A DNA stretch of 64,000 nt from Marivita sp. GX14005. GTDB taxonomy: Bacteria; Pseudomonadota; Alphaproteobacteria; Rhodobacterales; Rhodobacteraceae. Under the pieces are notes generated by a model. That model was not told the origin of the DNA, did no database searches, and saw nothing but the letters and a program-made list of their open reading frames with translations. The stretch spans positions 124,001-188,000 of the forward strand of contig NZ_JAMCCQ010000002.1 of NCBI RefSeq assembly GCF_023370775.1. Reading direction: 5' to 3'. Shown in pieces: positions 20,051 to 36,512 of this stretch (positions are counted from its first letter, which is position 1; each line of letters begins with the position of its first letter). A program made the translations under genes and the position numbers.

Positions 20051-20227
20051 GCGGCTCCGGCGGTTGCTGCGTTCCCTTCGTCAACCAGTGACGCAATGAG
20101 ATGTTCCGCACGGTGCCGTCGCACGGCGCGCTGGAACATTCCGCCCGGCGGCCTGTTTCTGGCCTCGTGATCGGAAGACGCCTTCCGACATTTTCGCCAC
20201 TCACCAACGCAACAGATGGAGAGAGAG

Positions 20228-20803: not shown

Positions 20804-20812
20804 CGCGCCGTA

Positions 20813-20922
20813 ATGCGTCGACGCATCATGCTGTTTGCGTCGACGCAAACAGGCGGTTTGATATTCTTATCAAATCGTTAATGGGTCAGAAGCGGTGACC
20901 TGATGTTTCGCGCGCGAAACAT
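20813..20922. repeat. Cluster of four palindromes filling a convergent intergenic gap
   Basis: Perfect palindromes lie at 20813-20826 (ATGCGTCGACGCAT), 20831-20852 (core TGTTTGCGTCGACGCAAACA) and 20903-20922 (ATGTTTCGCGCGCGAAACAT). An inverted repeat TTTGATA-TTCT-TATCAAA is at 20857-20874. The first two share the core GCGTCGACGC. They probably form tandem hairpins at the ends of the converging EF-hand and transglycosylase transcripts. Confidence 0.7.
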
Positions 20923-20938
20923 TGGGGCCGGTTCGGAC

Positions 20939-21529
20939 CTATCTGATATTGGGGCAACTGGCCAGTTGCACCTGATACATCGCCGCCCGCGCTGCAACCT
21001 CGTCGGAGACCCGAAGCAGCCAAGCCTTACGGTTGTAGCTGCCGCGCGAGAATCCGGTGCGCCCTTCGTGATAGGCGAGATATTGATTGCGCGCATCATA
21101 AGGTGAAATGCCCAACCGCTGCGTCGACTCCGCCATATACCAGGCCATGAAATCGGACGCATCGCGGATATTGTTTCGCCGCGCGCGGAACCGCCCCTGC
21201 GCGTCCTTGTATTCGTCCCACGTTCCGTTGAGCGCCTGGCTATAGCCATAGGCCGAGCTTTGCCGCCCCATCGGGATCACCCCGAGCGCATAGCGAAAGG
21301 GCGTCCGGGCGTCCGATTTGAACTTGCTCTCCTGATACATCGAGGCCATCTGGACATGCACCGGCACGCCCCATTTCCGCTCCGCCGCGCGAAACGCGCG
21401 GTGATAGCCGGGTCGCTGTTTCAGGATCGAACAGGCGTTATCGAGGTTGCGTGGCGCCGATGTGCCGCCGCCGCCCCCGCAGGAAGCGGCCAGTAAAACG
21501 ATCACCAAAGCGCGAAAGAGTCTGCTCAT
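20939..21529 (-). CDS. Lytic transglycosylase (SLT) domain lipoprotein
   Basis: A 196-aa lipoprotein with signal sequence and lipobox (LLAASC, lipidated Cys ~17), followed by a Gly-rich linker. The catalytic glutamate lies in MASMYQESKFKSDA, followed by YGYSQALNGTWDEY and a YLAYHEG motif, as in SLT-type murein transglycosylases that cut MurNAc-GlcNAc bonds. It is probably anchored in the inner or outer membrane facing the periplasm. Confidence 0.87.
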   Translation of the reverse strand: MSRLFRALVIVLLAASCGGGGGTSAPRNLDNACSILKQRPGYHRAFRAAERKWGVPVHVQMASMYQESKFKSDARTPFRYALGVIPMGRQSSAYGYSQALNGTWDEYKDAQGRFRARRNNIRDASDFMAWYMAESTQRLGISPYDARNQYLAYHEGRTGFSRGSYNRKAWLLRVSDEVAARAAMYQVQLASCPNIR

Positions 21530-21755
21530 CTGCCTCTCGCTAATTTTATGTGAGGGCTGTTTCTGCGCCCTTCTGCTTGGCCTTAGTGTAACGTAAACGC
21601 GATGAGGTGGAAATCACATTTCCCGAAAGTGGCACCTGCTCGCCAATCCCAGCCGCTGGTTTAACGCGACTACACAGTTTGTTTCCCTGAAACGCCAATC
21701 GGAAAATGGACAATTCGGCAGAAATCGGGCAGATATGTGGCAACGGACAGGACTC

Positions 21756-22082
21756 ATGATCAGACAACGCGCAAAATACAATATCGGGCAGGTGGTTCGG
21801 CACCGCAAACACCCCTTCCGGGGCGTTGTGTTCGATGTGGACCCGGAATTCAACAATACCGAGGAATGGTATGATGCCATTCCCGAGGAAAGCCGCCCGA
21901 AGAAGCACCAGCCATTCTATCACCTTCTCGCGGAGAACGAGCAGAGCTTCTACGTCGCCTATGTCTCCGAACAGAACCTGATCGCCGATTATTCCGGCGA
22001 GCCGGTCGAACATCCCGACGTGCCCGATCTTTTCGGCGCGTTCGAGGATGGCAGCTACGAGCTGCATTTCCAGTATAACTAG
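21756..22082 (+). CDS. hspQ: Heat shock protein HspQ
   Basis: A 108-aa protein of the HspQ/YccV family, which in E. coli specifies Lon substrates and binds hemimethylated DNA. It has KYNIGQVVRHRKHPFRG and the FYHLLAENEQSFYVAYVSEQNL block (seen as FYHLLAE and YVSEQNL). ATG 21756 follows GGACAGGA; an upstream ATG at 21735 lacks one. The 225 bp upstream hold no gene and no promoter that I can support. Confidence 0.92.
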   Translation: MIRQRAKYNIGQVVRHRKHPFRGVVFDVDPEFNNTEEWYDAIPEESRPKKHQPFYHLLAENEQSFYVAYVSEQNLIADYSGEPVEHPDVPDLFGAFEDGSYELHFQYN

Positions 22083-22117
22083 TCTCTCTCTTCGTTTGCC
22101 ACGGTGATAACCAGTTC

Positions 22118-22143
22118 AGGGCTCCTCCTCGGGAGCCCTTTTT
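22118..22143 (+). terminator. Rho-independent terminator after hspQ
   Basis: An 8-bp stem AGGGCTCC / GGAGCCCT with a TCCTCG loop is followed by a TTTTT run. It overlaps the stop codon region of the convergent threonine aldolase gene. Confidence 0.85.
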
Positions 22144-23185
22144 ACATGCCTGGCAGTAGCGCTGCGAAACGGTCGATCTCATCGCGCGGGAGCGACCAGT
22201 CACAGACGAGCCGGCCGGTCAGGGGTGCATCCTGCCCGCCCTTCGGATCGCCCGACACGTGATAGACCGCGCCGCTGCGCTGCAAATGCCGATGCAAACT
22301 TGCGGGAGCTTCGAAGAAGACGATGTTCGCCGCCGCGTCATTGACAAGGCGCAGGCCGGCAGCCTCTGCCATCCGCTCGCGCAGATACGCCGCATTCCCG
22401 TTCGCCGCGCGGGCAAGATCGCGCCAAAGATCGTTCCGCAAATACGCAGCCATCTGGGCCGAGAGATACCGGTGCTTCGAGAAGAGATGTCCGCCTCGCT
22501 TTCGGCGAAGCTCGAATTCCCATGCGCGCGCCGGATCGAATATCATCACGGCCTCCGCGCCCATCAGCCCGTTCTTTGTGCCGCCGAACACGGCAACATC
22601 GATCCCGGCCTTCCACGTCATCTCCGCCGGTGTCGCACCCAGCGCAATCAGCGCATTGGCCAGCCGCGCGCCATCGAGATGAACCGGGAGGTCATAGCCC
22701 TTGGCCAGATCGCAAAGCGCGCGAAGATCGTCCGGATCGTAGAGATTTCCGCGCTCCGTGACCTGAGTGACCGACAGCGCGCCGCGCTGGGGGCCATGCA
22801 CGCCGCGATTTCCCTCGCCCTCGATGGCGGCGCGGAGCGCATCGGGCGTCATCCGGTCGCCGCCCTCCACCAGCGTCAGCTTCGCGCCGCCGGTATAGAA
22901 TTCGGGCGCGTTGCATTCATCCTCGTGAATATGCGCGCAAGGCGTGCAGAACACAGTGTCAAAGGGCTGCACCAGGGTCGCCAGCGCCAGCGAATTCGCC
23001 GATGTGCCCGTCGCCACAAGGTATACGGCGGCCTCCGGCGCTTCGAAGAGATCGCGGAGGCGCGAGCGCACCTCGTCCATCAGCGGATCGGCTCCGTAGC
23101 TTGGCGCATAGCCGTTGTTCGCCTCGGCAAGCACATCCATGACGGCTTGCGGCACCGGGCCGCCATTGTCGGAGGCGAAGAACAT
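22142..23185 (-). CDS. Threonine aldolase family protein (low-specificity, beta-eliminating lyase fold)
   Basis: A 347-aa PLP enzyme that probably splits L-threonine or L-allo-threonine into glycine and acetaldehyde. It begins MFFASDNGGPVP, has the HIHEDECNAPEF segment and HLDGARLANAL, and has the PLP lysine in FGGTKNGLMGAEA. The start at 23185 overlaps the stop of the YcgN gene by one base (TGATG), so it is translationally coupled to the ribF-ycgN operon. Confidence 0.88.
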   Translation of the reverse strand: MFFASDNGGPVPQAVMDVLAEANNGYAPSYGADPLMDEVRSRLRDLFEAPEAAVYLVATGTSANSLALATLVQPFDTVFCTPCAHIHEDECNAPEFYTGGAKLTLVEGGDRMTPDALRAAIEGEGNRGVHGPQRGALSVTQVTERGNLYDPDDLRALCDLAKGYDLPVHLDGARLANALIALGATPAEMTWKAGIDVAVFGGTKNGLMGAEAVMIFDPARAWEFELRRKRGGHLFSKHRYLSAQMAAYLRNDLWRDLARAANGNAAYLRERMAEAAGLRLVNDAAANIVFFEAPASLHRHLQRSGAVYHVSGDPKGGQDAPLTGRLVCDWSLPRDEIDRFAALLPGM

Positions 23186-23658
23186 CAGGTCGGCTCCTCG
23201 ATGATATGCTCCTCCCAGTCGTCCTCGTCGATCTCGAACTCGGGAACGGTCGCGTTTCGCATCGAAACGCCTGCCTCGTGAACCGTCTCGGGCGTGCCGG
23301 AGATCAACGGGTGCCAGTCGTAAAGCGGCTTGCCCTCCCAAAGCAGACGATAGGCGCAGGTACGGGGCATCCAATAGGCGTGCTCGTCGATGTTAGAGGG
23401 TTTCAGCACGATACACTCCGGCACGAACTGGTGCCTGATCTCGTATTGCGCGCAGCGGCAAGAGCCGTCATCGAAAAGTCGGCAGGCGACACGGGTAAGC
23501 GCGACCTCGCCGGTCTCCTCGTCTTCCAGCTTGTTCAGGCAGCATTTGCCGCACCCGTCGCAAAGCGCCTCCCATTCGGGCGGCGACATCTCGTGCAGCG
23601 CCTTGCGCTCCCAGAAACGCGGGGTCAGCCCCGTTCGATCGATCGGATCACGGCTCAT
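23185..23658 (-). CDS. YcgN family cysteine cluster protein
   Basis: A 157-aa protein of the UPF0260/YcgN family with a conserved cysteine set (CDGCGKCC, then RVACRLF, SCRCAQY, VPECIVL and RTCAYR), likely to bind a metal or Fe-S centre. Function unknown. Its start overlaps the ribF stop (ATGA) and its stop overlaps the threonine aldolase start, so the three genes form a tight operon. Confidence 0.9.
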   Translation of the reverse strand: MSRDPIDRTGLTPRFWERKALHEMSPPEWEALCDGCGKCCLNKLEDEETGEVALTRVACRLFDDGSCRCAQYEIRHQFVPECIVLKPSNIDEHAYWMPRTCAYRLLWEGKPLYDWHPLISGTPETVHEAGVSMRNATVPEFEIDEDDWEEHIIEEPT

Positions 23659-24587
23659 TGGTTGTCCAGGATGGTGCGCGCGCGCATGCAGTCCTTGTGC
23701 ATTTGATCGACCAGTGCCGACACGCTCTCGAACTTGATCTCGGGGCGGAGAAAATCAACCAGCGCGACAGAAACGGTCGCGCCATAAAGATCGCCGCTGA
23801 AATCGAAGATGTAGGTTTCCAGATTGGCGCGGTTCTCGCCGAACATGGGCCGAACGCCGATGGAGGCGGCCCCCTGATAGGAGCCGGCATGGGGGCCGTC
23901 CAGAATGTCGATCAATACGGCGTAAACGCCGAACTTCGGCGGGTGCAGCCCGTCGATCGACATGTTGGCTGTCGGATAGCCCAGCTTGCGGCCGCGCTGT
24001 TCGCCGCTGATGACCTGCCCTTCGATCCGGTGCCAATGGCCGAGCATTTCAGCGGCCAGATGGGGTTGGCCGTCGGTGAGAGCCTGCCGGATCGCGGTCG
24101 AGGACACGTTGCCCGAGGGGGACTGGACGAGATCGGCGATGGTGACGCCGAATCCCATCTTGTCGCCGAAGGACGCCAGGTCGCTTGCGTCCCCGGCCCG
24201 ATCCTTGCCGAAACAGAAATCCGCGCCGACGACGACATGGCTGAGGCCAAGCCCGTCGGCGATCACCTGTTCGGCAAACGCCTGCGGCGTAAGGCTCGCG
24301 AGCTGCGTGTAAAACTTCAGCTCGTAGAGGATATCGACGCCGAGCTTTTCGAGCCGCGTGGCGCGTGCCTTGGCGTTCATCAGGCGAAAGGGCGGGGCGT
24401 TTGGGGCGAAATACTCGCGCGGATGCGGCTCGAAGGTGAGCACACCGAGCGGAGCATCGGGCGCGGCTTTGCGGGCAAGCTCGATCACCGCGCGATGGCC
24501 GAAATGCACGCCGTCGAAATTGCCGATGGCGGCGGTCGCGCCGCGATCCCCGGCCGAGACGTATTGATAATCCCGCACGATCTTCAT
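23655..24587 (-). CDS. ribF: Bifunctional riboflavin kinase/FAD synthetase
   Basis: RibF makes FMN and then FAD from riboflavin. The 310-aa protein has an N-terminal adenylyltransferase domain with the nucleotide-binding GNFDGVHFGHR motif (~residue 22) and FCFGKDRAGD. A C-terminal kinase domain has GRKLGYPTANM and an NLETYIFDFSGDLYG block. It leads the ribF-ycgN-threonine aldolase operon. A pair of long palindromes occupies the leader region upstream. Confidence 0.95.
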   Translation of the reverse strand: MKIVRDYQYVSAGDRGATAAIGNFDGVHFGHRAVIELARKAAPDAPLGVLTFEPHPREYFAPNAPPFRLMNAKARATRLEKLGVDILYELKFYTQLASLTPQAFAEQVIADGLGLSHVVVGADFCFGKDRAGDASDLASFGDKMGFGVTIADLVQSPSGNVSSTAIRQALTDGQPHLAAEMLGHWHRIEGQVISGEQRGRKLGYPTANMSIDGLHPPKFGVYAVLIDILDGPHAGSYQGAASIGVRPMFGENRANLETYIFDFSGDLYGATVSVALVDFLRPEIKFESVSALVDQMHKDCMRARTILDNQ

Positions 24588-24638
24588 GGCGCAGCACTAG
24601 CTGGCCGCTCGGTGCAGTTCAATCCCCCGGTCCAAGAG

Positions 24639-24684
24639 CGATTTTTCATCGATGAAAAATCGAGGATGCGTCGACGCATCCTCG
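24639..24684. repeat. Two overlapping perfect palindromes centred on TCGA
   Basis: A 24-bp perfect palindrome at 24639-24662 (core ATTTTTCATCGATGAAAAAT) runs directly into another 24-bp perfect palindrome at 24661-24684 (core AGGATGCGTCGACGCATCCT). They lie between the MaoC stop and the ribF start on the minus strand, so they may end the MaoC transcript. The second shares its core with the 20.8-kb cluster. Confidence 0.75.
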
Positions 24685-24695
24685 CGCTTTGCCGG

Positions 24696-25139
24696 TCAGT
24701 CGAACTTGCGTGACGGAGCGAGCACCTTGGCCTCGCCGATCAACACTTTCTTGCCATCGACAGCGCAATGACAATCCAGCGTCACGCGGCGTTTGGCAAC
24801 ATCGATATCGACAACCTTTACCTCCGCATGGACCATGTCGCCGGGGCGGACGGGAGCGAGGAATTTCAGGGATTGGCCGAGATAGACGGTGCCATGGCCC
24901 GGAAGCTGCTCTCCGATCACCGCCGAAATCAGACCGGCGGTCAGCATCCCATGCGCGATGCGCCCCTCGAAGATGGTGTCCTGCGCATAGTCGTCATCGA
25001 GATGCACCGGGTTTCGATCCGTCGAGATCTGGGCGAACATCTCGATGTCCTGATCGGTGACCTGCTTTCGCAGATGCCGGGTCATGCCCATCTCGATATC
25101 CTCGATACAGATCGTTCCGCGTGGAAGATTGTCCAACAT
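24696..25139 (-). CDS. MaoC-like (R)-specific enoyl-CoA hydratase family protein
   Basis: A 147-aa hot-dog-fold protein. The hydratase-2 motif with catalytic Asp and His is present (STDRNPVHLDDDYA), followed by FEGRIAHGMLTAGLIS. It probably hydrates trans-2-enoyl-CoA to (R)-3-hydroxyacyl-CoA, as PhaJ does, feeding beta-oxidation or polyhydroxyalkanoate synthesis. The start MLDNLPRG at 25139 is chosen from family length. It is monocistronic. Confidence 0.85.
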   Translation of the reverse strand: MLDNLPRGTICIEDIEMGMTRHLRKQVTDQDIEMFAQISTDRNPVHLDDDYAQDTIFEGRIAHGMLTAGLISAVIGEQLPGHGTVYLGQSLKFLAPVRPGDMVHAEVKVVDIDVAKRRVTLDCHCAVDGKKVLIGEAKVLAPSRKFD

Positions 25140-25242
25140 CCTACACCCCATTCCCGGCGCTTCGGTAACAAATATGCCGGCCATAAGGCCGTTCTGGCAA
25201 GTTTATTACTTTGCAGGTGCAGAAAATCAAGCAAAACTTGGG

Positions 25243-26115
25243 TCAGCGAAGCTGTCCTATCGTGTAGGTCGGCGAGGCTTGCTCCTTGGTCAGGTAGGCG
25301 TCGAGCGCATCCGGCTCCGGTTGATGCGCCGTTTTCGTTTCGGCCCTGGCCAGCCCGCCAGAGATGAACAGCGAGTCGATATCCTCGCCCATCGCGCCGG
25401 CGATATCGGTATGGATTCCGTCGCCAATGGCGAGCATGCGCGCCGGATCGGTATCCTTGCCCATCGCGGCCAGCCGCCGCCGCGCCAGATCGTAGATCGG
25501 GGGATGCGGTTTTCCGAAATAGAGGCTCTCGCCGCCCATCTCGGTATAAAGCGCGGCCAGCGCACCGGCGCACCATTCGCGCCTCTCGCCGCGATCCACG
25601 ATGATATCCGGGTTGGCGCAGAGCAGTTTCAGCCCCTTTTGTTTTGCATAGAGAAACTGCGGCCGGTTCACCGCCGGATCGGCGTGCGGATCGAACGGAC
25701 CGCAGCAGACGATGCCCTCGGCCTCTTCGAGTTCGACACGCTGGATATCGACAGGATCCTCGATGAGTTTCATCGGCTCGAAGAAGGCGAGATCGCCCTC
25801 CTGGCCCATGAACCAGACCTTTTCGCCGACCGCGCCGCGGAACATGGCCGCGCGGGCGCTGTCTCCGCTGGTGGCAATGAGATCATAGGCGTCCTCCGGC
25901 ACGCCGAAAAGACCGAGCTGTTTGGCCACCCCATGCCGCGCGCGCGGCGAGTTGGTCAGTAAAACGACCGTTCCGCCGCCGCGCCGAAACCCCTTGAGCG
26001 CGGCGACCGCGTCGTCATGGGCGCGCACGCCATCATGCACACAGCCCCACAGATCGACCAGCAGCACATCGTATCGGTCTGCGATATCGGCGAGGGAAGA
26101 GATGATCCGGGTCAT
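25243..26115 (-). CDS. TIGR01459 family HAD-type hydrolase
   Basis: A 290-aa HAD phosphatase of the class IIA (NagD-like) type, subfamily TIGR01459. Motif I is altered to LLVDLWGCVHDG, where the usual DxD second Asp is replaced; motif II is LLTNSPRA; the late motif is GDGIHTDIAGA. The DLWG form is typical of this subfamily. The substrate is unknown. The start at 26115 follows AGAGG. Confidence 0.82.
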   Translation of the reverse strand: MTRIISSLADIADRYDVLLVDLWGCVHDGVRAHDDAVAALKGFRRGGGTVVLLTNSPRARHGVAKQLGLFGVPEDAYDLIATSGDSARAAMFRGAVGEKVWFMGQEGDLAFFEPMKLIEDPVDIQRVELEEAEGIVCCGPFDPHADPAVNRPQFLYAKQKGLKLLCANPDIIVDRGERREWCAGALAALYTEMGGESLYFGKPHPPIYDLARRRLAAMGKDTDPARMLAIGDGIHTDIAGAMGEDIDSLFISGGLARAETKTAHQPEPDALDAYLTKEQASPTYTIGQLR

Positions 26116-26151
26116 TTTGGGCCTCTGGTGTGGTTTCCTGCAGGACACATG

Positions 26152-26178
26152 AAAAAGGGGGCGCCGTCCAGCGCCCCC
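26152..26178 (-). terminator. Rho-independent terminator of the Mn-pyrophosphatase gene
   Basis: On the minus strand, an 8-bp G/C stem (GGGGGCGC / GCGCCCCC) with a 6-nt loop is followed by TTTTT, 22 nt after the gene's stop codon. Confidence 0.85.
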
Positions 26179-26199
26179 GGAATTTCCGTCTTGGCCGCA

Positions 26200-27120
26200 T
26201 CAGACCTTTAGCGCCGGGATGATCTGCTTCTTGCGGCTGACGATGCCGGGCAGCAGGACCGTGTCGCCGGCGCTTTTGGCGCCAAAGCTCTTTTCGGCCA
26301 CCGTCTTGACGAAATCGTTCGGCAGCAGCAGTGTCGCCTCCTCGTTCAGGATATCGACGATGAAGAGCAGGACTTGATCCACCCCATCCTCGCGCGCGAC
26401 CTCGGGCATGGCGGCGATCAGGCTGTCCTTGCGCGCAAGAACCGTATCGGGCGATGTGGTTTCGAGCACTGACACCCGGAACGTCGTCTCTCCCAGTTCG
26501 AATTCCTTGCTGTCCATGCGCAGCAACTCGGCTTCGGAGAAGGCCGACACGTCGGATTTCGCGGCGAACATCTGCGCTGCGTAGTCGGGGATCGACACGC
26601 CCAGATCCTCGGCCAGCGCATGCGCGATGGCGCGGTCCTCCTGCGTCGTGGTGGGGGAGCGGAATTCGAGCGTGTCGGACAGAATGCAGGAGAGCATCGC
26701 GCCCTTGATGCCGCGGGGCGCCTGCGCCATGTCGTCGCCGATCAGCTTATACATGATCGTTGCAGTGCAGGCGACCGGCTCGATGCGAATGTCGAGCGGA
26801 CTGCGTGTTTCCAGACCGCCCACGAGGCGGTGATGATCGATGATGGCGCGAATGTCGGCGCTGTTGATCGCTGGCGGCAGTTCGGCGGGGTTGTTGGTAT
26901 CGACGATCACGACGGGCTGATCCGCCTCGACATCGGAGATGATCTGCGGCTTGTCGAGCGCCCAGTGATCGAGCACGAAGGCGGCTTCGGTGTTCGGCTC
27001 GCCCAGAAGCGCGGGTTTGGCATCCTCGCCCTTGATCTGGTTGAGATACCACGCCCAGATGATCGGGCTGCCGGTGCTGTCTGTGTCGGGGGAGGTGTGT
27101 CCGAAAACAAGGGTCGTCAT
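26200..27120 (-). CDS. ppaC: Manganese-dependent inorganic pyrophosphatase (DHH family, family II)
   Basis: Cytosolic enzyme hydrolysing pyrophosphate to phosphate. The 306-aa protein shows GHTSPDTDST at the N-terminus, a DTNNPAEL metal-ligand segment, AIIDHHRL (DHH motif), and the C-terminal SRKKQIIPAL substrate-binding motif. Length fits family II. The start MTTLVFG at 27120 is preferred over one nine codons further upstream. Confidence 0.93.
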   Translation of the reverse strand: MTTLVFGHTSPDTDSTGSPIIWAWYLNQIKGEDAKPALLGEPNTEAAFVLDHWALDKPQIISDVEADQPVVIVDTNNPAELPPAINSADIRAIIDHHRLVGGLETRSPLDIRIEPVACTATIMYKLIGDDMAQAPRGIKGAMLSCILSDTLEFRSPTTTQEDRAIAHALAEDLGVSIPDYAAQMFAAKSDVSAFSEAELLRMDSKEFELGETTFRVSVLETTSPDTVLARKDSLIAAMPEVAREDGVDQVLLFIVDILNEEATLLLPNDFVKTVAEKSFGAKSAGDTVLLPGIVSRKKQIIPALKV

Positions 27121-27202
27121 AGGTTTGTCGTTCCTGCCAAATGCCAATCGCGCGCCTTATAGGGCGCGCGATGCGGCTTGTCACCCGCCCGCGAGGGCGC
27201 GG

Positions 27203-28780: not shown

Positions 28781-29417
28781 AGAGCTGTTTCGCTTCTTCC
28801 AGGGTATCGAACATATGCAGCTGACCGTCCATCAGGACGGCGGCCTTGCTGGCGAATCGCGCGAGGGTTTCGGGCTGGTGAGAGACGATCACCATCGTCG
28901 TCGTGCGCAGGCGTTCGGCCAGGATATCGCCGGCCTTGCGGTTGAAATTGACGTCCGTGTAGGTCGGCATCCCCTCATCGACGAGGTAGATATCGAAATC
29001 CAGCGCGAGCATCAGCGCGAAGGTGAACCGCGCGCGCATGCCCGAGGAATAGGTGCCGAGCGGCTGATCGAAATATTCCCCCAGATCGCACAGCCAGCGG
29101 CAATACGCCTCCACATAGTCGGGATCGAGCCCGTAGAGCCGGGCGATGAAGCGCGAGTTTTCCATCGCGGTATGCTTGGTCACGACGCCGCCCATGAAGC
29201 CGAGGGGAAAGGAGACCCGGCTTGTCTTGCGAATCTCGCCCTCGTCGGGTTTTTCCAGCCCCGCCATCATCTTGATAAGGGTCGTCTTGCCAGTGCCGTT
29301 CGGCGCGAGGATGCCGAGCGATTGACCCGGTTCCACGCGAAAGGAGGCCCGGTCGAGGATCACCTTTCGGTGCGAGCCGGTCCAGAATGATTTGCTGACA
29401 TTGTCGAATTCCAGCAT
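28758..29417 (-). CDS. kpsT: Capsule polysaccharide export ATP-binding protein, KpsT family
   Basis: A 219-aa ABC ATPase for group 2-type capsule export. The Walker A is APNGTGKTT, the signature is GTYSSGMRARFTF (KpsT-type rather than LSGGQ), and the Walker B is DIYLVDEGMP. It overlaps kpsE at its 3' end. The membrane partner kpsM is not adjacent on either side. Confidence 0.92.
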   Translation of the reverse strand: MLEFDNVSKSFWTGSHRKVILDRASFRVEPGQSLGILAPNGTGKTTLIKMMAGLEKPDEGEIRKTSRVSFPLGFMGGVVTKHTAMENSRFIARLYGLDPDYVEAYCRWLCDLGEYFDQPLGTYSSGMRARFTFALMLALDFDIYLVDEGMPTYTDVNFNRKAGDILAERLRTTTMVIVSHQPETLARFASKAAVLMDGQLHMFDTLEEAKQLYDYETQG

Positions 29418-29487
29418 GTCGCCCCTTTATCTCCGTACAGGCATCGCACGGGATTGTTTCCAAAGGGTTTAGATTTTGATTTTGACT

Positions 29488-29503
29488 GGATTGTGACCAA
29501 TCC
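29488..29503. promoter_or_regulatory. Short inverted repeat between the sulfotransferase gene and kpsT
   Basis: GGATTG and CAATCC arms are separated by TGAC. The repeat lies in the 114-bp AT-richer gap downstream of the sulfotransferase stop and upstream of kpsT. It could be a weak terminator or an operator; no T run follows it. Confidence 0.3.
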
Positions 29504-29531
29504 GTAGCAAATTCCGGATACTGTTGATGGA

Positions 29532-30455
29532 TCAGTGCCGGATCGTTTGCCTGACTTGCCGGTGAATTGACAGATCGGCGGCGTAATACTCCTCAAGCCG
29601 CCCCCGAAGGTCGTATGGCAGGTAACTGTTCAGATCGAGCGTCGGCGCATTGTCCAGATCGCCGGGCAGCAGATCGGCCGCGATGGAAAGGTGCTCGCGC
29701 TCTGCACTGCGCGAGGCGTTGATGTGCGGCAGTGTGATTTCCGATCCGATATGCGCGCCCAGATCCTCCGCCAGACGGTCGAGCGCGCGGACGTCGTAGA
29801 TATGAGTGAAGGGAATATGGCCCATGTAGAAGACCTGTGGCTGCCAGTGACTGTTCAGGGTCTGCGGCTCTTCGGACAGGATGTATTCCGCGAATTCGCG
29901 GAATGTGATGCCGTGCGCGTAATCCTCTTCGTTCAGTTCAGGCTTGCCGAAAATGGCGCACAGCACCTCATCTATGGTCTGGCGCTGGTTCTCGCGCGTG
30001 CGATTGACGACGAATTTCTCGACATAGGCACTGACCAGACGATCAAGCGGGTGGCGAAAGATCACGAACCGCATCCAGCCATCGCCCGTCAGTGCCGCCC
30101 GGATTTCTTCGTCGGAACGGTCCTTGAACTGCAGCCCGGTGTTGCGGCTATCGAGGATGTGATGGATGCCCTCGTCCTTGTCATCGGTCAGACCGCCCAA
30201 CTCGGCGACCAGCCGCTTGGTCGAAGAACAGGCGTTCTTGGCCACCGGCTGATAAATCAGCTTCAACGTATCGACGATCATTGCCTGACTGGTCGGAGAG
30301 CGCTTGCGCGATACCGACAATGGGCAATGCCCCTCACGTTTTCGGCGGGTCAGCCGGGGTTTGACGGGTTGAGGGCCGGCGGGCGTGTTGGGCTCGGCCA
30401 TCTGCGCCGAAGGGGCAAAGGAGCGGCGCAGTCTGACCAAGAGAGAATTTCCCAT
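29532..30455 (-). CDS. Sulfotransferase family 2 protein
   Basis: Probable PAPS-dependent carbohydrate sulfotransferase (Sulfotransfer_2 type, 307 aa). The 5'-phosphosulfate-binding loop appears as VAKNACSSTKR, and the 3'-phosphate-binding motif as IFRHPLDRLVSAYVEKF. The N-terminal ~55 residues are basic and low in complexity. Its place before kpsT-kpsE suggests that it sulfates the exported polysaccharide (inference). The start at 30455 follows GGACGG. Confidence 0.8.
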   Translation of the reverse strand: MGNSLLVRLRRSFAPSAQMAEPNTPAGPQPVKPRLTRRKREGHCPLSVSRKRSPTSQAMIVDTLKLIYQPVAKNACSSTKRLVAELGGLTDDKDEGIHHILDSRNTGLQFKDRSDEEIRAALTGDGWMRFVIFRHPLDRLVSAYVEKFVVNRTRENQRQTIDEVLCAIFGKPELNEEDYAHGITFREFAEYILSEEPQTLNSHWQPQVFYMGHIPFTHIYDVRALDRLAEDLGAHIGSEITLPHINASRSAEREHLSIAADLLPGDLDNAPTLDLNSYLPYDLRGRLEEYYAADLSIHRQVRQTIRH

Positions 30456-30801
30456 CGACCGTCCTTTCGCCAAACGCCTGCTTTTTCAGGCATGCGCCGT
30501 AACTACCGCAATTCGATCCGTTTGAGAAGAATCCGCCAGTCCGATTGCGATTACAGGCCGGAGAAGGCCGAATGGCGTGTGAAAAACCGCCGAAATGCGC
30601 ACAAAGCGACACAATGTCGTTTTTAGCGCTAACGAGGACGGTTTGCGGTGCCTGAACGGCGGCGGCATGGAAATACTCGGCCTCCTATGTCGCTGCTTGC
30701 AAAACTTCAGCAACCTTGTTGCATTATGTATCGCAAAGCGGTTTAGTCACGACATAAAAGAACGCGGAAACAATCCGCGGCCATAAACAGGGAGGGCATT
30801 T
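30456..30801. other. 346-bp intergenic region upstream of the polyamine-type ABC operon
   Basis: No gene is seen here. Small symmetric elements are CGACA-CAA-TGTCG followed by T5 (30607-30624), TTAGCGCTAA (30623-30632) and CGCGGA-AACAA-TCCGCG (30763-30779), the last just before the Shine-Dalgarno GGAGGG. A possible promoter is TTGCAT (30719-30724), 17 nt, TTTAGT (30742-30747). None is certain. Confidence 0.35.
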
Positions 30802-31905
30802 TTGCCAGACTCGTCACACAATGACGCGTTCGTTGAATTTGAACGGGTGCAAAAAAGCTATGACGGCGTGCAGCTCGTCGTCAAAGATTTGAACCTCACC
30901 ATGCCCAAGGGCGAATTTCTGACGATGCTCGGGCCGTCTGGATCGGGCAAGACGACCTGCCTGATGATGCTCGCCGGGTTCGAAACGGCGACGCATGGCG
31001 ACATCCGCCTCGATGGCCGGCCGATCAACAACATCCCGCCGCACAAGCGCGGCATCGGCATGGTGTTCCAGAACTACGCGCTGTTTCCGCATATGACGAT
31101 TGCCGAAAATCTCAGCTTCCCGCTGGAGGTGCGCAAGATCGGCAAATCCGACCGCGAGGCGAAGGTGCGCCGCGCGCTCGACATGGTGGAGATGGGCGAT
31201 TTCGGCGGCCGCCGCCCGGCGCAGCTTTCGGGCGGTCAGCAGCAGCGTATCGCGCTGGCGCGCGCGTTGGTGTTCGAGCCGGAGCTGGTGCTGATGGATG
31301 AGCCGCTCGGCGCGCTCGACAAGCAGTTGCGCGAGAAGATGCAGTTCGAGATCACGCATCTGGCGCACCGTCTGGGCATCACCGTGGTCTACGTGACGCA
31401 CGACCAGACCGAAGCGTTGACGATGTCGGACCGCGTCGCGGTGTTCGATGACGGCCGTATCCAGCAGCTTGCCCCGCCCGATGAGCTTTACGAGGCGCCG
31501 CAAAACAGCTTCGTCGCGCAGTTCATCGGCGAGAACAACACGCTCGAAGGCACCGTGCGCGAGATCGGCGGCAATCGCTGTCTGGTCGAGCTGGATGACG
31601 GCGAATTGATTGACGCCTTGCCGGTCAACGTGTCCAAACCGGGCGAGCGCACTCGTGTTTCGATCCGGCCCGAAAGGGTCGAGTTCGACAAGAGCCGCCT
31701 GCAGGAAGGCGTGCATACGCTCAAGGCGGAAGTGCTGGAATTCATTTACATGGGCGACATTTTCCGCACGCGGCTCAGCGTGGCGGGGAACGATGATTTC
31801 GTCATCAAGACGCGCAACGCCCCCGATCAGGTGCGGCTCGAACCGGGCGCGCAGATCGAGATCGGCTGGCTGCCCGAGGATTGCCGCGCGCTCGACGCGG
31901 GCTAG
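30802..31905 (+). CDS. Polyamine-type ABC transporter ATP-binding protein (PotA-like)
   Basis: A 367-aa importer ATPase of the spermidine/putrescine/Fe3+ class. Walker A is GPSGSGKTT, the signature LSGGQQQRIALARAL, Walker B LVLMDEPLGALD, the switch THDQTEALTMSD, and the C-terminal half is a TOBE-type regulatory domain. The start is TTG at 30802, supported by a strong GGGAGGG 8 nt upstream and the absence of a closer ATG. It is the first gene of a five-gene importer operon. Confidence 0.9.
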   Translation: MPDSSHNDAFVEFERVQKSYDGVQLVVKDLNLTMPKGEFLTMLGPSGSGKTTCLMMLAGFETATHGDIRLDGRPINNIPPHKRGIGMVFQNYALFPHMTIAENLSFPLEVRKIGKSDREAKVRRALDMVEMGDFGGRRPAQLSGGQQQRIALARALVFEPELVLMDEPLGALDKQLREKMQFEITHLAHRLGITVVYVTHDQTEALTMSDRVAVFDDGRIQQLAPPDELYEAPQNSFVAQFIGENNTLEGTVREIGGNRCLVELDDGELIDALPVNVSKPGERTRVSIRPERVEFDKSRLQEGVHTLKAEVLEFIYMGDIFRTRLSVAGNDDFVIKTRNAPDQVRLEPGAQIEIGWLPEDCRALDAG

Positions 31906-32009
31906 CGGCGCGGCGCCAGTGGGAGGCCGGCGCCTTCAGTCAGATGCGGAATGTTCGATCCGGCGCACCGCATCCTTCGACATAACCGGATTGCAAAGGG
32001 AGACCACGA

Positions 32010-33116
32010 ATGAAACTGTCTACAACTCTACTGGCGACGAGCGCCCTGACCGCTGCTGCCGTTGCGGCACACGCGCAGGACATGGCCGATGACATGACGC
32101 TCGTCAGCTGGGGCGGCGCGTATCAGGAAAGCCAGAACAAGGCCTATCTTCAGCCCTATCTCGAAGAGCATCCCGAGGTCAGCGCGTCCTGGGATGAAAG
32201 CTCTGCCGAGGCTGTGGCCAAGCTGCGTGCGATGAACGAGGCGGGCAACATCACCTGGGATCTGGTCGATGTCGTGGCCTCCGACGCGCTGCGCCTGTGC
32301 GACGAAGGTCTGGCGATGGAGCTGGATTTCAACGAGGTTCTGGCCGAGGGCGATGACGGCTCGACGCCCGAAGAAGATTTCGGCGACCTGCTGATCAATG
32401 ACTGTTTCGTGCCGCAGATCGTCTATTCGACCACCTTCGGCTACCGCACCGACATGGTGGGCGACACCCCGCCATCCTCCGTGTGCGATGTGTTCGATCT
32501 GGAAACCTATCCGGGCAAGCGCGCGCTGCAGAAGCGGCCGATCGACAACATGGAATGGGCGCTCTACTGCGACGGCGTCGAGAAGGACGAGATCTACGAC
32601 GTTCTGGGCACCGACGAGGGTGTCGATCGCGCACTCGCCAAGCTCGACACGATCAAGGATCAGGTCGTCTGGTGGACCGCCGGCGCGGAAACGCCGCAGC
32701 TTCTCGCCGATGGCGAGGTCGTCATGGGCTCGACCTTCAACGGTCGCCTCTTCTCGGCCATCGCGGAGCAGGATCAGCCGATCGATATGCTCTGGGACAT
32801 GCAGTCCTTCGATCTCGACGGCTGGATCATCCCCGAAGGTCTGCCGGAAGATCGTCTGGCGCGGGTGCTGGATTTCCTGAAATTCGCCACCGATACGCAG
32901 CGTCTTGCCGATCAGGCGAAGTACATCTCCTACGGTCCGGCGCGCAATTCCTCCGCGCCGCTGGTCGGCCAGCATGCCGAGCTCGGTATCGACATGGCAC
33001 CGCATATGCCGACCGATCCGGCCAATGCGACGAATGTTCACCTCTATGACTACGAATGGTGGGCTGACAACCGCGATGATCTGGACGCCAAGTTCCAGTC
33101 CTGGCTCGCGCAATAA
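32010..33116 (+). CDS. Extracellular substrate-binding protein, PotD-like
   Basis: Periplasmic solute-binding protein of 368 aa with a signal peptide cut near AHAQ. It has the N-terminal LVSWGGAYQESQNKAY stretch of the PotD/SBP_bac family, a VDVVASDALRLCDEG block and a C-terminal YEWWADNRDDLDAKFQSW. It probably delivers a polyamine or related cation to the permeases encoded downstream. The ligand cannot be fixed. Tandem hairpins follow it. Confidence 0.88.
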   Translation: MKLSTTLLATSALTAAAVAAHAQDMADDMTLVSWGGAYQESQNKAYLQPYLEEHPEVSASWDESSAEAVAKLRAMNEAGNITWDLVDVVASDALRLCDEGLAMELDFNEVLAEGDDGSTPEEDFGDLLINDCFVPQIVYSTTFGYRTDMVGDTPPSSVCDVFDLETYPGKRALQKRPIDNMEWALYCDGVEKDEIYDVLGTDEGVDRALAKLDTIKDQVVWWTAGAETPQLLADGEVVMGSTFNGRLFSAIAEQDQPIDMLWDMQSFDLDGWIIPEGLPEDRLARVLDFLKFATDTQRLADQAKYISYGPARNSSAPLVGQHAELGIDMAPHMPTDPANATNVHLYDYEWWADNRDDLDAKFQSWLAQ

Positions 33117-33123
33117 TCTCGCC

Positions 33124-33188
33124 GGGGCGGGGCAACCCGCCCTGCGCTGGGGCAGGCCGACGGCCTGTCCCGTTTCCCGAAGGGACGG
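33124..33188 (+). promoter_or_regulatory. Three tandem hairpins after the binding-protein gene
   Basis: First: GGGCGGG-GCAA-CCCGCCC (33125-33142). Second: GGGGCAGGCC-GAC-GGCCTGTCCC with one G-U pair (33149-33171). Third: CCGT and CCC pairing with GGG and ACGG (33170-33188). The third includes the AAGGGA Shine-Dalgarno of the next gene, so it could limit its translation. The second and third share two bases, so they may be mutually exclusive. Confidence 0.55.
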
Positions 33189-33194
33189 AAATTA

Positions 33195-33482
33195 ATGCCC
33201 AAAGGCTATATCATCGGTCATATCACCGTGAACGATCCCGAGGCCTACCGGGAATATGTGGAGCGTGATACGCCGATCCTCGAAGGCCATGGCGGGCGGT
33301 TCATCGTGCGCGGCGGAGCGTCCGAAACAGTCGAGGGGCAATCGGAGCGGCGACATGTCGTGATCGAGTTCGACGATTTCGAAGCCGCGAAGCGGGCCTA
33401 TCACGACCCGGCCTATCAGGAAGTCGCCGAGATTCGCCGCCGCACCGCCACCAGCACGATCATTCTAGTCGAAGGCACCTGA
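33195..33482 (+). CDS. DUF1330 domain-containing protein
   Basis: A 95-aa dimeric alpha/beta-barrel-type protein of the DUF1330 family, beginning MPKGYIIGHITVNDPEAYREY. Members are small cytosolic proteins of unknown function. It sits between the binding protein and permease genes with 4 bp to the latter, so it is co-translated with the importer. Its role there is unclear. Confidence 0.88.
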   Translation: MPKGYIIGHITVNDPEAYREYVERDTPILEGHGGRFIVRGGASETVEGQSERRHVVIEFDDFEAAKRAYHDPAYQEVAEIRRRTATSTIILVEGT

Positions 33483-33486
33483 CGAC

Positions 33487-35199
33487 ATGAGCCATCCAGC
33501 GACCGATCCCGACAAGATCATCGGAACGACGCCAGACAATGCGCTGCGCAATGCCGATCGGGCCGATGCCCGAGCCGACGGGCCGGTGCTCGCCGCCGAT
33601 GGCACGCCGCTCAAGCGGTCCCTGGCCCGTGCGCTTCGGGCGCAGAAGCTGCGTGCGCTGGCGCTGATCGCGCCGCTTCTCATCTTCGTTCTCGTCAGCT
33701 TCATTGCGCCCATCGGCGATATGCTTTTCCGCTCGGTCGAGAACCAGATCGTCAAGGACACGCTGCCGCGCACGGTTGTCGCGCTGCGCGACTATGATGC
33801 GGCCTCCACCGAATTGCCGCGCGACGAGGTGTTCGAAGCGGCCTATTACGATATTTTCTATGCAGCCGAGCGCAAGATCCACACACGGCTCGGCTCGCGC
33901 CTGAATTACGAGATGTCGGGCGCATCCTCGCTTTTCCGCAAATCCGGGCGCGGGCTCGACGATGTCGGAGAGCTTTATCAGGATCAGTTCGAGGCTTTGA
34001 ATGAGGGCTGGGACGAGGCCGGCCCCTGGGTCGAGATCATGGCCGATCCCGAATGGGTGACCGAGCAGGCGGCATGGGACGCCGCGCCGGAAGGCCGGAT
34101 GCCGCGCTTCGAGCTGCGTGAGGGGATCGCCGAAATCCTGCCGCGCACCAGCGAGGCTTACGAGACCTTCGCCCGGTTCACCCAAGTCGAAGAGGGCGAC
34201 AGCCCGCTCGAGGAAGAGCCGTGGTCGGCCGTTCACACGGCGCTTTACCAGGATCTCTCGGCCACCGACCTTTCCGGCTATTCCGGCCCGCGCGCCGACA
34301 TGCTGCAGGCGGCTGACGCTCTCGTGGAGAGTGACGGTTTCGAAACCGTCGCCTTCCGCGATGCCTTTGCTGAGGTCGATGAGGACTGGGTGGAGCCCGA
34401 GATATGGCAGACCATCAAGATGTATAGCCCCGCCTACACGTCGGGATATTTCCTCAACTCCATCGACATGCAGAAAACGGCGGACGGTCCGGCGCTGCGC
34501 GATGCGGATGAGCGCATCTACGGGCTGCTCTTCTGGCGCACGCTGTTCATGAGCCTCGTCATCACGTTCAGCTGCATCCTTCTGGGGTATCCCATCGCCT
34601 ATCTTCTGTCGAACCTGCCCTCGGGCAAGGCGAACCTGCTGATGATCCTCGTCCTTCTGCCCTTCTGGACCTCGCTTCTGGTGCGCACGAGCGCGTGGAA
34701 GGTGATGTTGCAGCAGCAAGGGGTGATAAACGACGTGCTCGTCTGGCTCGGCATGGTGTCGGATGACGGGCGGCTGGTGATGATCAACAACCAGTTCGGC
34801 ACCATCGTCGCGATGACGCATATCCTGCTGCCCTTCATGATCCTGCCGATGTTCTCGGTCATGTCGACCATTCCGGTCTCCTATACCCGCGCCGCGAAAT
34901 CGCTTGGCGCGACCAACTGGACGGCCTTCTGGCGGGTCTATTTCCCGCAATCGGTGCCGGGGATCGGCGCTGGCTCGATCCTCGTGTTCATCCTATCGAT
35001 CGGCTATTACATCACGCCCGAGATTGTCGGCGGCACCTCCGGCATCTTCATCTCGAACCGGATCGCCTATCACATCTCCAGCTCGCTCAACTGGGGTCTG
35101 GCGGCGGCGCTCGGCTCGATCCTGCTGGTGGTCGTGCTGATCCTCTACTGGGCCTATGACCGGATCGTGGGCATCGACAACGTGAAACTGGGGGGCTGA
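33487..35199 (+). CDS. ABC transporter permease, PotB-like, with large periplasmic insertion
   Basis: A 570-aa inner-membrane subunit, far longer than PotB (~285 aa). The first span is at ~57-78 (LALIAPLLIFVLVSFIAPIG). Residues ~80-345 form an unusual hydrophilic, acidic domain predicted to be periplasmic. The remaining spans (~350-560) carry the permease core, with the EAA-like loop RAAKSLGATNWTAFWRVYFP. It pairs with the next gene. Confidence 0.87.
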   Translation: MSHPATDPDKIIGTTPDNALRNADRADARADGPVLAADGTPLKRSLARALRAQKLRALALIAPLLIFVLVSFIAPIGDMLFRSVENQIVKDTLPRTVVALRDYDAASTELPRDEVFEAAYYDIFYAAERKIHTRLGSRLNYEMSGASSLFRKSGRGLDDVGELYQDQFEALNEGWDEAGPWVEIMADPEWVTEQAAWDAAPEGRMPRFELREGIAEILPRTSEAYETFARFTQVEEGDSPLEEEPWSAVHTALYQDLSATDLSGYSGPRADMLQAADALVESDGFETVAFRDAFAEVDEDWVEPEIWQTIKMYSPAYTSGYFLNSIDMQKTADGPALRDADERIYGLLFWRTLFMSLVITFSCILLGYPIAYLLSNLPSGKANLLMILVLLPFWTSLLVRTSAWKVMLQQQGVINDVLVWLGMVSDDGRLVMINNQFGTIVAMTHILLPFMILPMFSVMSTIPVSYTRAAKSLGATNWTAFWRVYFPQSVPGIGAGSILVFILSIGYYITPEIVGGTSGIFISNRIAYHISSSLNWGLAAALGSILLVVVLILYWAYDRIVGIDNVKLGG

Positions 35200-35202
35200 T
35201 CC

Positions 35203-36393
35203 ATGTCCGAAGCGATACTCACGCCGATCGAGAAAAAGCCCATCGGTTTCACCGTCGGAGTTCTGGCCGCGGCCGGCGCTGTCGCCGGGCTGTTCATCGG
35301 CACGGCGCAAGGCTCGGGCCTCGTCGGGATCGTCGCTGGTGCAGTGCTGATGGCCGTGCTGGCCTTCGTCGCGCTCGAGGTGCTGGGCCCAGGAATGGAA
35401 AAACCGTTGCGCTGGGGTGTGATCGCGCTTTTCGCGGTGGCGGGGCTTTTGCTGGGGTCGGTGCCGGGGCTCATCCTCGGCGCACTCTTCGGCTGGTTCT
35501 TCGGCTGGTTCGCCTATTGGATCGGCATGGGGCGATACCGCGCGCATCTGGTGCCCTACCTGACCGGCGGGCAGGTGCTCTGGCACTACAGTTTCCGCGT
35601 CATCTGCGGCGCGATCTTCATCTTCCTGATCACGCCGATCCTCGTGGTGATGCCGCTGTCCTTCAACGCCGAGAACTTCTTCACCTTCACGCCGGGGATG
35701 CTGCGCTTCGATCCCGAGGCCTATTCACTCAAGCATTACCGGGATTTCCTGACCAACCCGGAATGGACCAACGCGGTCAAGAATTCGCTGATGGTTGCCC
35801 CGGTGGCGACGCTGATCTCGGTCGGGCTCGGCACGCTGGCCGCCATCGGCCTGAGCCAGAGCCACGTGCCGGGGAAGCGCGCGATCATGGCGATTCTGAT
35901 CTCGCCGATGATCGTGCCGCTGATCATTTCGGCGACAGGGATGTATTTCTTCTACTCCAAGATCGGCATCGTCGGCACATATTGGGGCATCGTGCTGGCC
36001 CATGCGGTGCTCGGGATTCCCTTCGTCATCATCACCGTCACGGCAACGTTGGTGGGTTTCGACAGGTCGCTGACCCGCGCTGCGGCGAATATGGGTGCCG
36101 ATCCGATCCGCACGTTCTTCAAGGTGCAGATGCCGCTGATCCTGCCTGGAGTGATCTCGGGGGGTCTTTTCGCTTTCATCACCTCCTTCGATGAGGTCGT
36201 CGTGGTGCTGTTCATCGGCTCGGCGGAATTGCAAACCTTGCCGTGGCAGATGTTCACCGGCCTGCGCGAGCAGATTTCGCCGACGATTCTGGCGGCGGCG
36301 ACGATCCTTGTCGGCATTTCCATCTGCCTGCTGACCACGGTGGAGATGTTGCGGCGGCGCTCCGAACGGCTCAGGGGGATGTCGCCGAGTTAG
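35203..36393 (+). CDS. ABC transporter permease, PotC-like
   Basis: A 396-aa inner-membrane subunit. The permease core (~135-390) has the EAA-type loop RAAANMGADPIRTFFKVQMP. The first ~110 residues add about four extra hydrophobic spans (GVLAAAGAVAGLFIG, GIVAGAVLMAVLAFVALEVL and two more), absent from typical PotC (~265 aa). It is the last gene of the operon, followed by palindromes and a terminator. Confidence 0.88.
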   Translation: MSEAILTPIEKKPIGFTVGVLAAAGAVAGLFIGTAQGSGLVGIVAGAVLMAVLAFVALEVLGPGMEKPLRWGVIALFAVAGLLLGSVPGLILGALFGWFFGWFAYWIGMGRYRAHLVPYLTGGQVLWHYSFRVICGAIFIFLITPILVVMPLSFNAENFFTFTPGMLRFDPEAYSLKHYRDFLTNPEWTNAVKNSLMVAPVATLISVGLGTLAAIGLSQSHVPGKRAIMAILISPMIVPLIISATGMYFFYSKIGIVGTYWGIVLAHAVLGIPFVIITVTATLVGFDRSLTRAAANMGADPIRTFFKVQMPLILPGVISGGLFAFITSFDEVVVVLFIGSAELQTLPWQMFTGLREQISPTILAAATILVGISICLLTTVEMLRRRSERLRGMSPS

Positions 36394-36396
36394 GAC

Positions 36397-36441
36397 GCAA
36401 GCGTTTTCGAAAACGCTTGCAAGAGCCTTCGAAGGCTCTTG
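36397..36441. repeat. Two adjoining perfect palindromes centred on TCGA
   Basis: A 24-bp perfect palindrome at 36397-36420 (core AAGCGTTTTCGAAAACGCTT) is joined, sharing one base, to a 22-bp perfect palindrome at 36420-36441 (core AAGAGCCTTCGAAGGCTCTT). They start 4 nt after the permease stop codon and precede a conventional terminator. Arms differ from those at 20.8 and 24.6 kb, but the TCGA centre and the pairing are the same. Confidence 0.75.
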
Positions 36442-36453
36442 GACGTGGAAATG

Positions 36454-36487
36454 GGGAAGGCCCTGCACCTGAATGCAGGGCCTTTCC
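36454..36487. terminator. Bidirectional rho-independent terminator
   Basis: A 13-bp-class stem (AAGGCCCTGCA / TGCAGGGCCTT plus flanking pairs) with a CCTGAA loop is flanked by AAAT and ATTTT. It lies between the convergent permease and ilvE genes. Confidence 0.85.
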
Positions 36488-36512
36488 ATTTTGCCTGGCC
36501 ATTTTCGGGCGT

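Follow-up and report, generated by a model that had tools for sequence, protein, structure and literature searches.

Twin palindromes at three gene ends

The window considered here is a 64,000-nucleotide stretch of a 3.45 Mb Marivita genome (Rhodobacterales), G000:C4:124001-188000, where G-labels denote genomes (G000 being that of the window) and L-labels denote loci in relatives. Three intergenic gaps within it, at 20813-20852, 24639-24684 and 36397-36441, each contain a pair of perfect palindromes, and this analysis concerns these twin palindromes and the repeated element of which they are copies. An earlier note, made from the letters of the window alone, had described six palindromes in these gaps, all centred on TCGA, and all six were located as claimed.

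At site 1, hairpin A (20813-20826, 14 bp, ATGCG-TCGA-CGCAT) starts 9 nt past the stop codon of an EF-hand-like gene (20216-20803, plus strand; its Pfam match is slightly under the cut-off). Hairpin B (20831-20852, 22 bp, CTGTTTGCG-TCGA-CGCAAACAG) lies 4 bp further on, with the two centres 22 bp apart, and an SLT transglycosylase gene on the minus strand (20939-21529) makes the gap convergent. Site 2 consists of a B-like hairpin (24639-24662, 24 bp, CGATTTTTCA-TCGA-TGAAAAATCG) that overlaps by 2 bases with a hairpin A (24661-24684, 24 bp, CGAGGATGCG-TCGA-CGCATCCTCG). The latter is 11 nt past the stop codon of a MaoC-like gene (24696-25184, minus), which is followed across the site by a riboflavin kinase/FAD synthetase gene (23655-24587, minus). 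At site 3, the first hairpin (36397-36420, 24 bp, GCAAGCGTTT-TCGA-AAACGCTTGC) is 3 nt past the stop codon of an ABC permease gene (35203-36393, plus) and overlaps by 1 base with the second (36420-36441, 22 bp, CAAGAGCCT-TCGA-AGGCTCTTG), again with 22 bp between centres; a class IV aminotransferase gene (36513-37382, minus) lies beyond.

Sites 1 and 2 carry sequence cores that are common to many other copies, and site 3 belongs to a second class (T-class), in which a T precedes the loop and the feet are often AAG. The pair at site 1 is matched by R1, a model of the A/B pair, with E 3.4e-11 (G000:C4:144809-144852, minus); its score of 14/16 is slightly under the strict pair rule used for the counts below and places it in the looser list. 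An Rfam scan of the window at the gathering score returned two tRNAs only, and the single sub-threshold match within 20750-36560 lies away from the sites, so that membership of a known Rfam family was rejected for them.

Excess over chance and geometry of the pairs

Palindromes of 14 bp are as common in the window as expected (7 seen, 7.6 expected), and the 14-bp palindrome of site 1 is unremarkable by itself. Longer ones are in clear excess: 9 palindromes of at least 18 bp were seen in the window against about 1.1 in 50 first-order Markov sequences, and 31 of at least 20 bp in 848 kb of G000 against 3.0 in 10 second-order Markov runs. Within the latter group 26 of 31 are centred on TCGA, where 0.1 would be expected. 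Hairpins with a stem of at least 8 bp and a 4-base loop number 89 in the same 848 kb (28.3 expected), among which TCGA, TCAA and TTGA loops account for 26, 6 and 5 against expectations of 0.3, 0 and 0. Adjacent hairpins with any loop were counted over 1.248 Mb and reach 40, compared with 3.0 in 2 Markov runs. A chance origin was rejected on these palindrome, hairpin and tandem-hairpin counts, and the excess over random controls on which the earlier note had staked its case is borne out. The loop counts also indicate that what is conserved is a stem bearing a UYRA-type loop, and not TCGA in particular. The proposed TCGA centre is accurate for the six palindromes of the window and fails as an absolute rule, as TCAC, GCGA and other loops also occur.

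The element is best read as two abutting hairpins with stems of 8-10 bp and 4-base loops, mostly TCGA and otherwise TCAA or TTGA. In most of the retrieved pairs, a hairpin A with the arms GATGCG and CGCATC adjoins a hairpin B whose loop is preceded by TTTCCG, TTTGCG or TTTCGG. Among centre spacings from 12 to 59 bp in G000, 25 pairs fall at 22 bp and 4 at 21 bp, with 0-5 at each of the others and 1.5 expected per spacing. When distinct GATGCG-N4-CGCATC seeds in Marivita DNA were taken with the neighbouring sequence unconstrained, a partner hairpin (at least 6 of 8 pairs) was found for 106 of 112. All 106 partners are at 21 or 22 bp, although distances of 20-23 bp were tested on both sides, and at control distances of 50-53 bp only 2 of the 112 reach 6 pairs; loci of G008 and of G018, G051, G041, G197 and G224 stood outside this test. 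The spacing is not frozen, since both 21 and 22 bp occur within 7 of the 23 orthologous clusters and the centres of a T-class triple in L077 are 23 bp apart. The pairs also have a polarity: read in the order B then A, asymmetric loops are TCAA in 41 cases and TTGA in 15 (69 non-redundant pairs; p=7e-4). The idea of an outer stem around the two hairpins was rejected, with a mean of 2.23 compared with 2.32 in permuted flanks.

Repetition of the sequence itself is extensive. The exact 16-mer GATGCGTYRACGCATC is present in 27 copies at unrelated sites in G000, dozens of unrelated places share the inner arms GATGCG and TTTCCG, and the T-class pattern AAGCGYYTTCGAARRCGCTT has 5 copies in G000. Tandem arrays of pairs are present in two relatives, G009 and G013, with periods of 67 and ~103 bp. 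It had been argued that selection acts on a hairpin rather than on a copied sequence; the comparisons of arms given below agree with selection on a hairpin, but copying does take part, and the claim that the sequence is not a copied one does not stand.

The A/B pair often has a third hairpin next to it, of the form GGGGC-nnn-GCCCC or similar, after which comes AGACCCCCGAAGTATT or a similar sequence (L174, L188, L190, L199, L201, L210, L216, L218, L224).

Placement relative to genes

Gene models for the placement counts came from our own codon-usage script. In 1.25 Mb of G000 there are 26 strict pair rows, two of which are second readings of three-hairpin sites that have a hairpin in common with the preceding row. 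Sixteen of them are in convergent gaps and 10 in co-directional gaps, with 0 in divergent gaps and 0 inside genes; relative to the distribution of intergenic bases, both the convergent share (p=1.6e-6) and the lack of divergent positions (p=5e-4) are significant. A wider set of 87 A/B pairs from five genomes, in which stems of at least 6 were required, gives the same picture, as every one follows a gene end (31 convergent, 56 co-directional). Median distances from stop codon to pair in this set, read from sorted lists, are 13 nt for genes on the plus strand and 10 nt for those on the minus strand. Under a looser partner rule, 37 of 107 sites are convergent, 66 co-directional and 3 divergent, and the remaining one lies at the edge of a locus. 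The position at gene ends that the earlier note gave for three sites holds in these counts, and it is not random.

Evolution of the arms

In four of the five genomes A-type loci were mostly retrieved by the exact 16-mer GATGCGTYRACGCATC. Because this sequence served as bait, the conservation of hairpin A follows from the selection of loci, and hairpin B and the outer positions are the informative parts. Across 69 non-redundant A/B pairs, 98.7% of 1067 pair cells are paired, with 5 G-U and 14 unpaired, and changes on both sides of the stem account for 147 of the 1067 cells compared with 35.2 in shuffles. The inner pairs of hairpin B are conserved; variable outer positions keep their complementarity using all four pair types.

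Similar behaviour is seen among orthologues. Of 12 orthologous gaps in Marivita, 11 retain the site 2 pair. An alignment of 12 sequences (including this window, with one of the two candidate pairs of L078 used and the decayed L079 left out) has 96.9% of 191 cells paired, 1 G-U and 6 unpaired; both-sided changes occupy 15 of the 191 cells against 2.6 when shuffled, and 9 of 16 pairs have one. With one comparison per orthologous cluster over positions 1-7, 21 clusters yield 18 both-sided and 9 one-sided changes, 2 of the latter involving G-U and 7 other mismatches. Their loops are unchanged in 26 cases, changed in 16 and inverted in 0 (n=42). Counting all pairwise comparisons over positions 1-8, which repeats species, gives 313 both-sided and 229 one-sided changes, so one-sided states are common enough. 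Judged from these alignments, a change in one arm of a twin hairpin tends to be matched in the other, which leaves the hairpin intact, in line with the earlier suggestion that symmetry is kept while the arms vary.

Gain and loss are also apparent. Six of 13 relatives have a pair in the gap matching 27121-27202, where the window has none; two of these six just reach the threshold of 13/16. No clean empty site was seen in the two gaps aligned. For site 1, 0 orthologous gaps were delimited using both flanking genes.

Distribution across genomes

The 16-mer GATGCGTYRACGCATC is found in 15 of 17 genomes of the genus at 3-40 copies each, with 0 for a reversed-pattern control. Only 3 of 394 genomes of the family contain it: G000 and two single-copy genomes whose partner is 24 bp away. 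Model R1 at E<=0.01 gave 15-132 matches in each of the 17 genus genomes, with up to 150 candidates scored per genome. At E<=1e-5 in 100 family genomes, with stricter filters and up to 63 candidates scored per genome, G000 had 48 matches and G018 a single one, while the remaining 98 had none. Across 1.08 Mb in 54 loci from other genera no TCGA hairpin was found and TNNA hairpins number 2 against 4 in one Markov run, and 163 kb of G008 contained no TCGA pair. The T-class pattern does extend to a few other genera, with 4 copies in G018, 6 in G051 and 1 in G041 among 60 other genomes; in 160 kb of G051 there are 18 TNNA hairpins, whose centres lie 23-24 bp apart. As far as these searches reach, the wider twin-hairpin class is patchy in the family, with the A/B form almost restricted to Marivita.

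Other palindromes of G051, a genome from another genus of the family, include an array of four different 20-24 bp palindromes (centres TCGA, TGGA, TGCA and TCGA) placed 23-24 bp apart, which occurs twice in the same order, at L263 (585-678) and L265 (5093-5185). In the same genome CCAAGCGGTTTCGAAACCGCTTGG is repeated 122 and ~130 bp apart at L267 (16979, 17101) and L268 (5799, 5928), one copy being shorter by one base on each side.

A proposed role at mRNA 3' ends

The twin hairpins, their spacing, their placement at gene ends, the repeated cores and the co-varying arms form the basis for interpretation. At a probability of roughly 0.45, just short of even odds, we favour the reading that the three sites are copies of a repetitive extragenic palindromic (REP)-like 3'-end element of Marivita that would act as a hairpin pair in transcripts. 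REPs block exonucleases. The Marivita element would be part of the mRNA, transcribed from one flank or from both, and the RNA would fold into two hairpins that present a barrier at the 3' end to 3'-to-5' exonucleases and would in this way define the end of the mRNA. The 3' end itself would probably be set after Rho-dependent or weak termination further downstream. As the element is self-complementary, it could serve both transcripts of a convergent pair, and it may thus mark or protect mRNA ends. Placement at gene ends and compensated changes in the arms support this proposal, as does the predicted RNA of the three sites, which is 4.1-4.2 standard deviations more stable than shuffles. According to the part of PMC12306157 available to us, REPs no more than 15 nt from a stop codon lower translation, and by analogy lowered translation is a possible further role of the element.

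Several observations weigh against this proposal. The minimum-energy RNA fold of site 1 joins its two palindromes to one another. An apparent sense bias in a first count (A-B 39 against 17; TTGA 36 against 13) faded once arrays and orthologues were removed, leaving no significant preference in either order (A-B 26, B-A 16; p=0.16) or loops (TTGA 21, TCAA 13; p=0.23). Self-complementary loops are not preferred at convergent sites, with TCGA in 40 of 74 compared with 62 of 132 (p=0.38). By the same rule used for site 2, the site 3 pair is present in only 1 of 9 relatives, L069, where its arms are compensated; L077 has three hairpins there and others show remnants. Together with the retention of site 2 and the presence or absence of a pair at 27121-27202, this patchiness indicates that sites have been gained, lost and kept. 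Co-directional sites, where mostly one strand is read, have no preference for G-U (sense G-U 5 and A-C 3 of 528), and mismatches are equally restricted at co-directional and convergent sites (17/528 and 12/296; p=0.56). G-U is rarer in the pairs than in U-run terminators (p=0.026, small numbers), although the U-run terminators of the same genomes, with pairs masked, have no G-U excess themselves (G-U 5 and A-C 5 of 124). That control weakens the lack of G-U as proof of two-strand or DNA-level selection, and the G-U results neither prove nor exclude a role at the level of DNA.

A broader and rather doubtful reading takes the pairs as part of a previously undescribed class of untagged Rhodobacterales twin-hairpin 3'-end elements with UNNA-type loops, expanded in a few separate genera and shaped by its DNA form as well as by RNA. 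The paired changes in the arms, the near absence of G-U even where one strand is read, and the distance of about two DNA turns between centres would then point to a cruciform, a single-stranded hairpin or template-switch repair.

Alternative explanations

The earlier note had named a terminator, an RNA stabiliser, a protein site and a small palindrome family as roles, and each is possible. Terminator shape classes in WebGeSTer include V- and X-shaped forms, and the pairs might be tandem intrinsic terminators of the V/X-shaped or hairpin-cluster class, which lack a full U-tract and act in both directions at convergent genes. Strong hairpins at gene ends would suit such a function, and PMC8355165, as far as its accessible text goes, puts forward clusters of short hairpins as terminators. 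Moreover, in 25 of the 26 co-directional pairs read A-B, arm B places 3-5 T after hairpin A, compared with 0 of the 16 read B-A, and these T could serve hairpin A as a weak U-tract in the A-B order. That order is not significantly preferred, however, and the 20 nt downstream of 42 co-directional pairs are not T-rich; a T run after the pair was sought in the same 42 and rejected, as the earlier note had said. The pairs also do not replace U-run terminators, since the two are unrelated in occurrence when pairs are masked: among convergent gaps a U-run terminator is present in 4 of the 16 that contain a pair and 28 of the 131 that do not (p=0.75), and among co-directional gaps the corresponding figures are 2 of 10 (3 of 10 unmasked) and 44 of 765 (p=0.11). 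With site 3 keeping a U-run terminator of its own as well, termination by the pairs seems unlikely. Quite unlikely, in our view, is a selfish repeat resembling a bacterial interspersed mosaic element (BIME), spread by a transposase, perhaps of the single-stranded DNA hairpin type, and tolerated at gene ends. The cores common to dozens of sites, the expansion at genus level, the tandem arrays, the built-in polarity of order and loops, and the presence or absence at gap 27121-27202 are what mobility would leave behind. Against this, the protein family of the REP-associated tyrosine transposase (RAYT; PF01797) has no match in G000, G002, G004, G009 or G013. Mobility by RAYT in G000 was rejected on that basis, and the 4 of 17 genus genomes that do have RAYT do not include G009 and G013, which have the most model matches. 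A GTAG tag is found in 2/69 and 0/69 on the two sides (control 0/138), the two aligned gaps offer no clean empty site, site 2 is old, and the arms diverge by compensation more than by decay.

Two further explanations place the cause in DNA. The pair could be a double-stranded site in which two dyads about two helical turns apart are bound by a dimeric protein such as gyrase or a nucleoid or partition factor. The distance of 21 or 22 bp for every partner at A seeds, close to two turns of B-DNA, and the conserved inner pairs of B are in keeping with it. Recognition of sequence would not need variable outer positions to stay complementary with all four pair types, and the spacing itself changes between orthologues, in the L077 triple and in G051; we regard such a site as improbable. 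Very improbable is the possibility that perfection is maintained mainly by mutation, with replication template switching copying one arm onto the other under little selection. Both-sided changes are indeed many and intermediates few, and PMC8794818, in the part available, describes the mechanism for RNA hairpins and its ability to alter both arms in one event. The footprint that this source names, inversion of the loop, is rare: all pairwise comparisons together show it in 2 of 185 loop changes, and with one comparison per cluster it is seen in 0 of 42 loops. One-sided states are many in the all-pairs counts, and the placement at gene ends is left unexplained by such a process.

Relation to known repeats

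REP/BIME and REPIN sequences (GTAG class, RAYT-linked) are palindromic pairs that are intergenic, present in tens of copies and sometimes arranged in tandem arrays. The Marivita element resembles them in all of these features and differs in its GTAG foot, which is nearly absent from A/B pairs as given above, and in the lack of a RAYT (Y1_Tnp) gene match in G000. The nearest published kind is the REP element, especially the alphaproteobacterial CGTC-REP. From what is accessible of PMC3733652, CGTC-REPs have stems of 8-9 bp and loops of 4-5 nt (here mostly 8-10 bp and 4), commonly form dimers, have no transposase association and are patchy among species, all as in Marivita. They also adjoin the 3' ends of genes, in gaps of convergent or co-directional type, a placement that the Marivita element shares and that counts in favour of a 3'-end role. 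Other features set the two apart. The unpaired terminal tag CGTC is found in 0/69 A/B pairs on both sides, and in the outer 8 nt the variant tags TGTC and CCTC reach 0/69 and 0/69, and 2/69 and 0/69, respectively (controls for CGTC, TGTC and CCTC 3, 3 and 5 of 138; A/B pairs only, T-class not included). The short unpaired tail, mostly CCA in CGTC-REPs, is found in only 2/69 on each side. The Marivita hairpins, unlike CGTC-REPs, abut with centres 21-22 bp apart. On the first two stem pairs, A-T in CGTC-REPs, the comparison is mixed, as position 7 of A/B pairs is mostly G-C or C-G and some T-class hairpins begin AA..TT. Seven Rhodobacterales names looked for do not occur in the text of PMC3733652, whose species list stands in its figures.

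The terminators made of hairpin clusters or tandem hairpins in PMC8355165, as covered by its accessible part, likewise have adjacent hairpins soon after stop codons, but the Marivita element is a repeated sequence family of fixed geometry that is independent of U-run terminators. The element falls within the broad definition of a REP in the consulted part of PMC12306157 (a short, extragenic, palindromic, repeated stem-loop with a common motif), and it is filed here as REP-like, being neither a CGTC-REP nor a REPIN. Among the entries listed by searches of open-access literature, which does not cover subscription journals, there was no paper on it. Such REP-like repeats lack published tags, and surveys based on tags may therefore miss them.

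In culturable marine bacteria, the pairs offer elements that can be counted and used to study how 3' ends form where few gene ends have a U-run terminator. With dozens of copies per genome, orthologous and not, they are a case for following the evolution of perfect hairpins whose arms turn over mostly in step, and the same data can be used to weigh selection against template switching during replication.

Other features in the window and in related genomes

A U-run terminator hairpin at 36454-36487 (GGGAAGGCCCTGCA...TGCAGGGCCTTTCC followed by ATTTTG) adjoins site 3 and is separate from the pair. Each of the 8 Marivita relatives aligned at site 3 has a hairpin of this kind (GGCCCTGCA..TGCAGGGCC), with arms changed in step in L073 and an A-rich 5' flank in most relatives, and the hairpin is likely to be a bidirectional terminator.

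Another tandem-hairpin type, GGGGGG-CCAG/CTGG-CCCCCC plus a second hairpin, is found at G000:C1:148989-149033 and G000:C4:210301-210348, with a similar one in G008 (L141).

A different dispersed palindrome, TGTTTCGC(RY)GCGAAACA, is located at 20903-20922 inside a conserved surround of ~60 bp (20880-20942) with AGGTCCG... and ...TGACCTAT-like flanks. Its copies number 11 in G000, 12, 11 and 9 in three other Marivita genomes, 15 in G051, and 2, 1 and 0 in three other genera. The ParB site parS has the form TGTTTC..GAAACA, which we take the ends of this palindrome to resemble, and a partition- or nucleoid-type binding site is therefore a lead for it.

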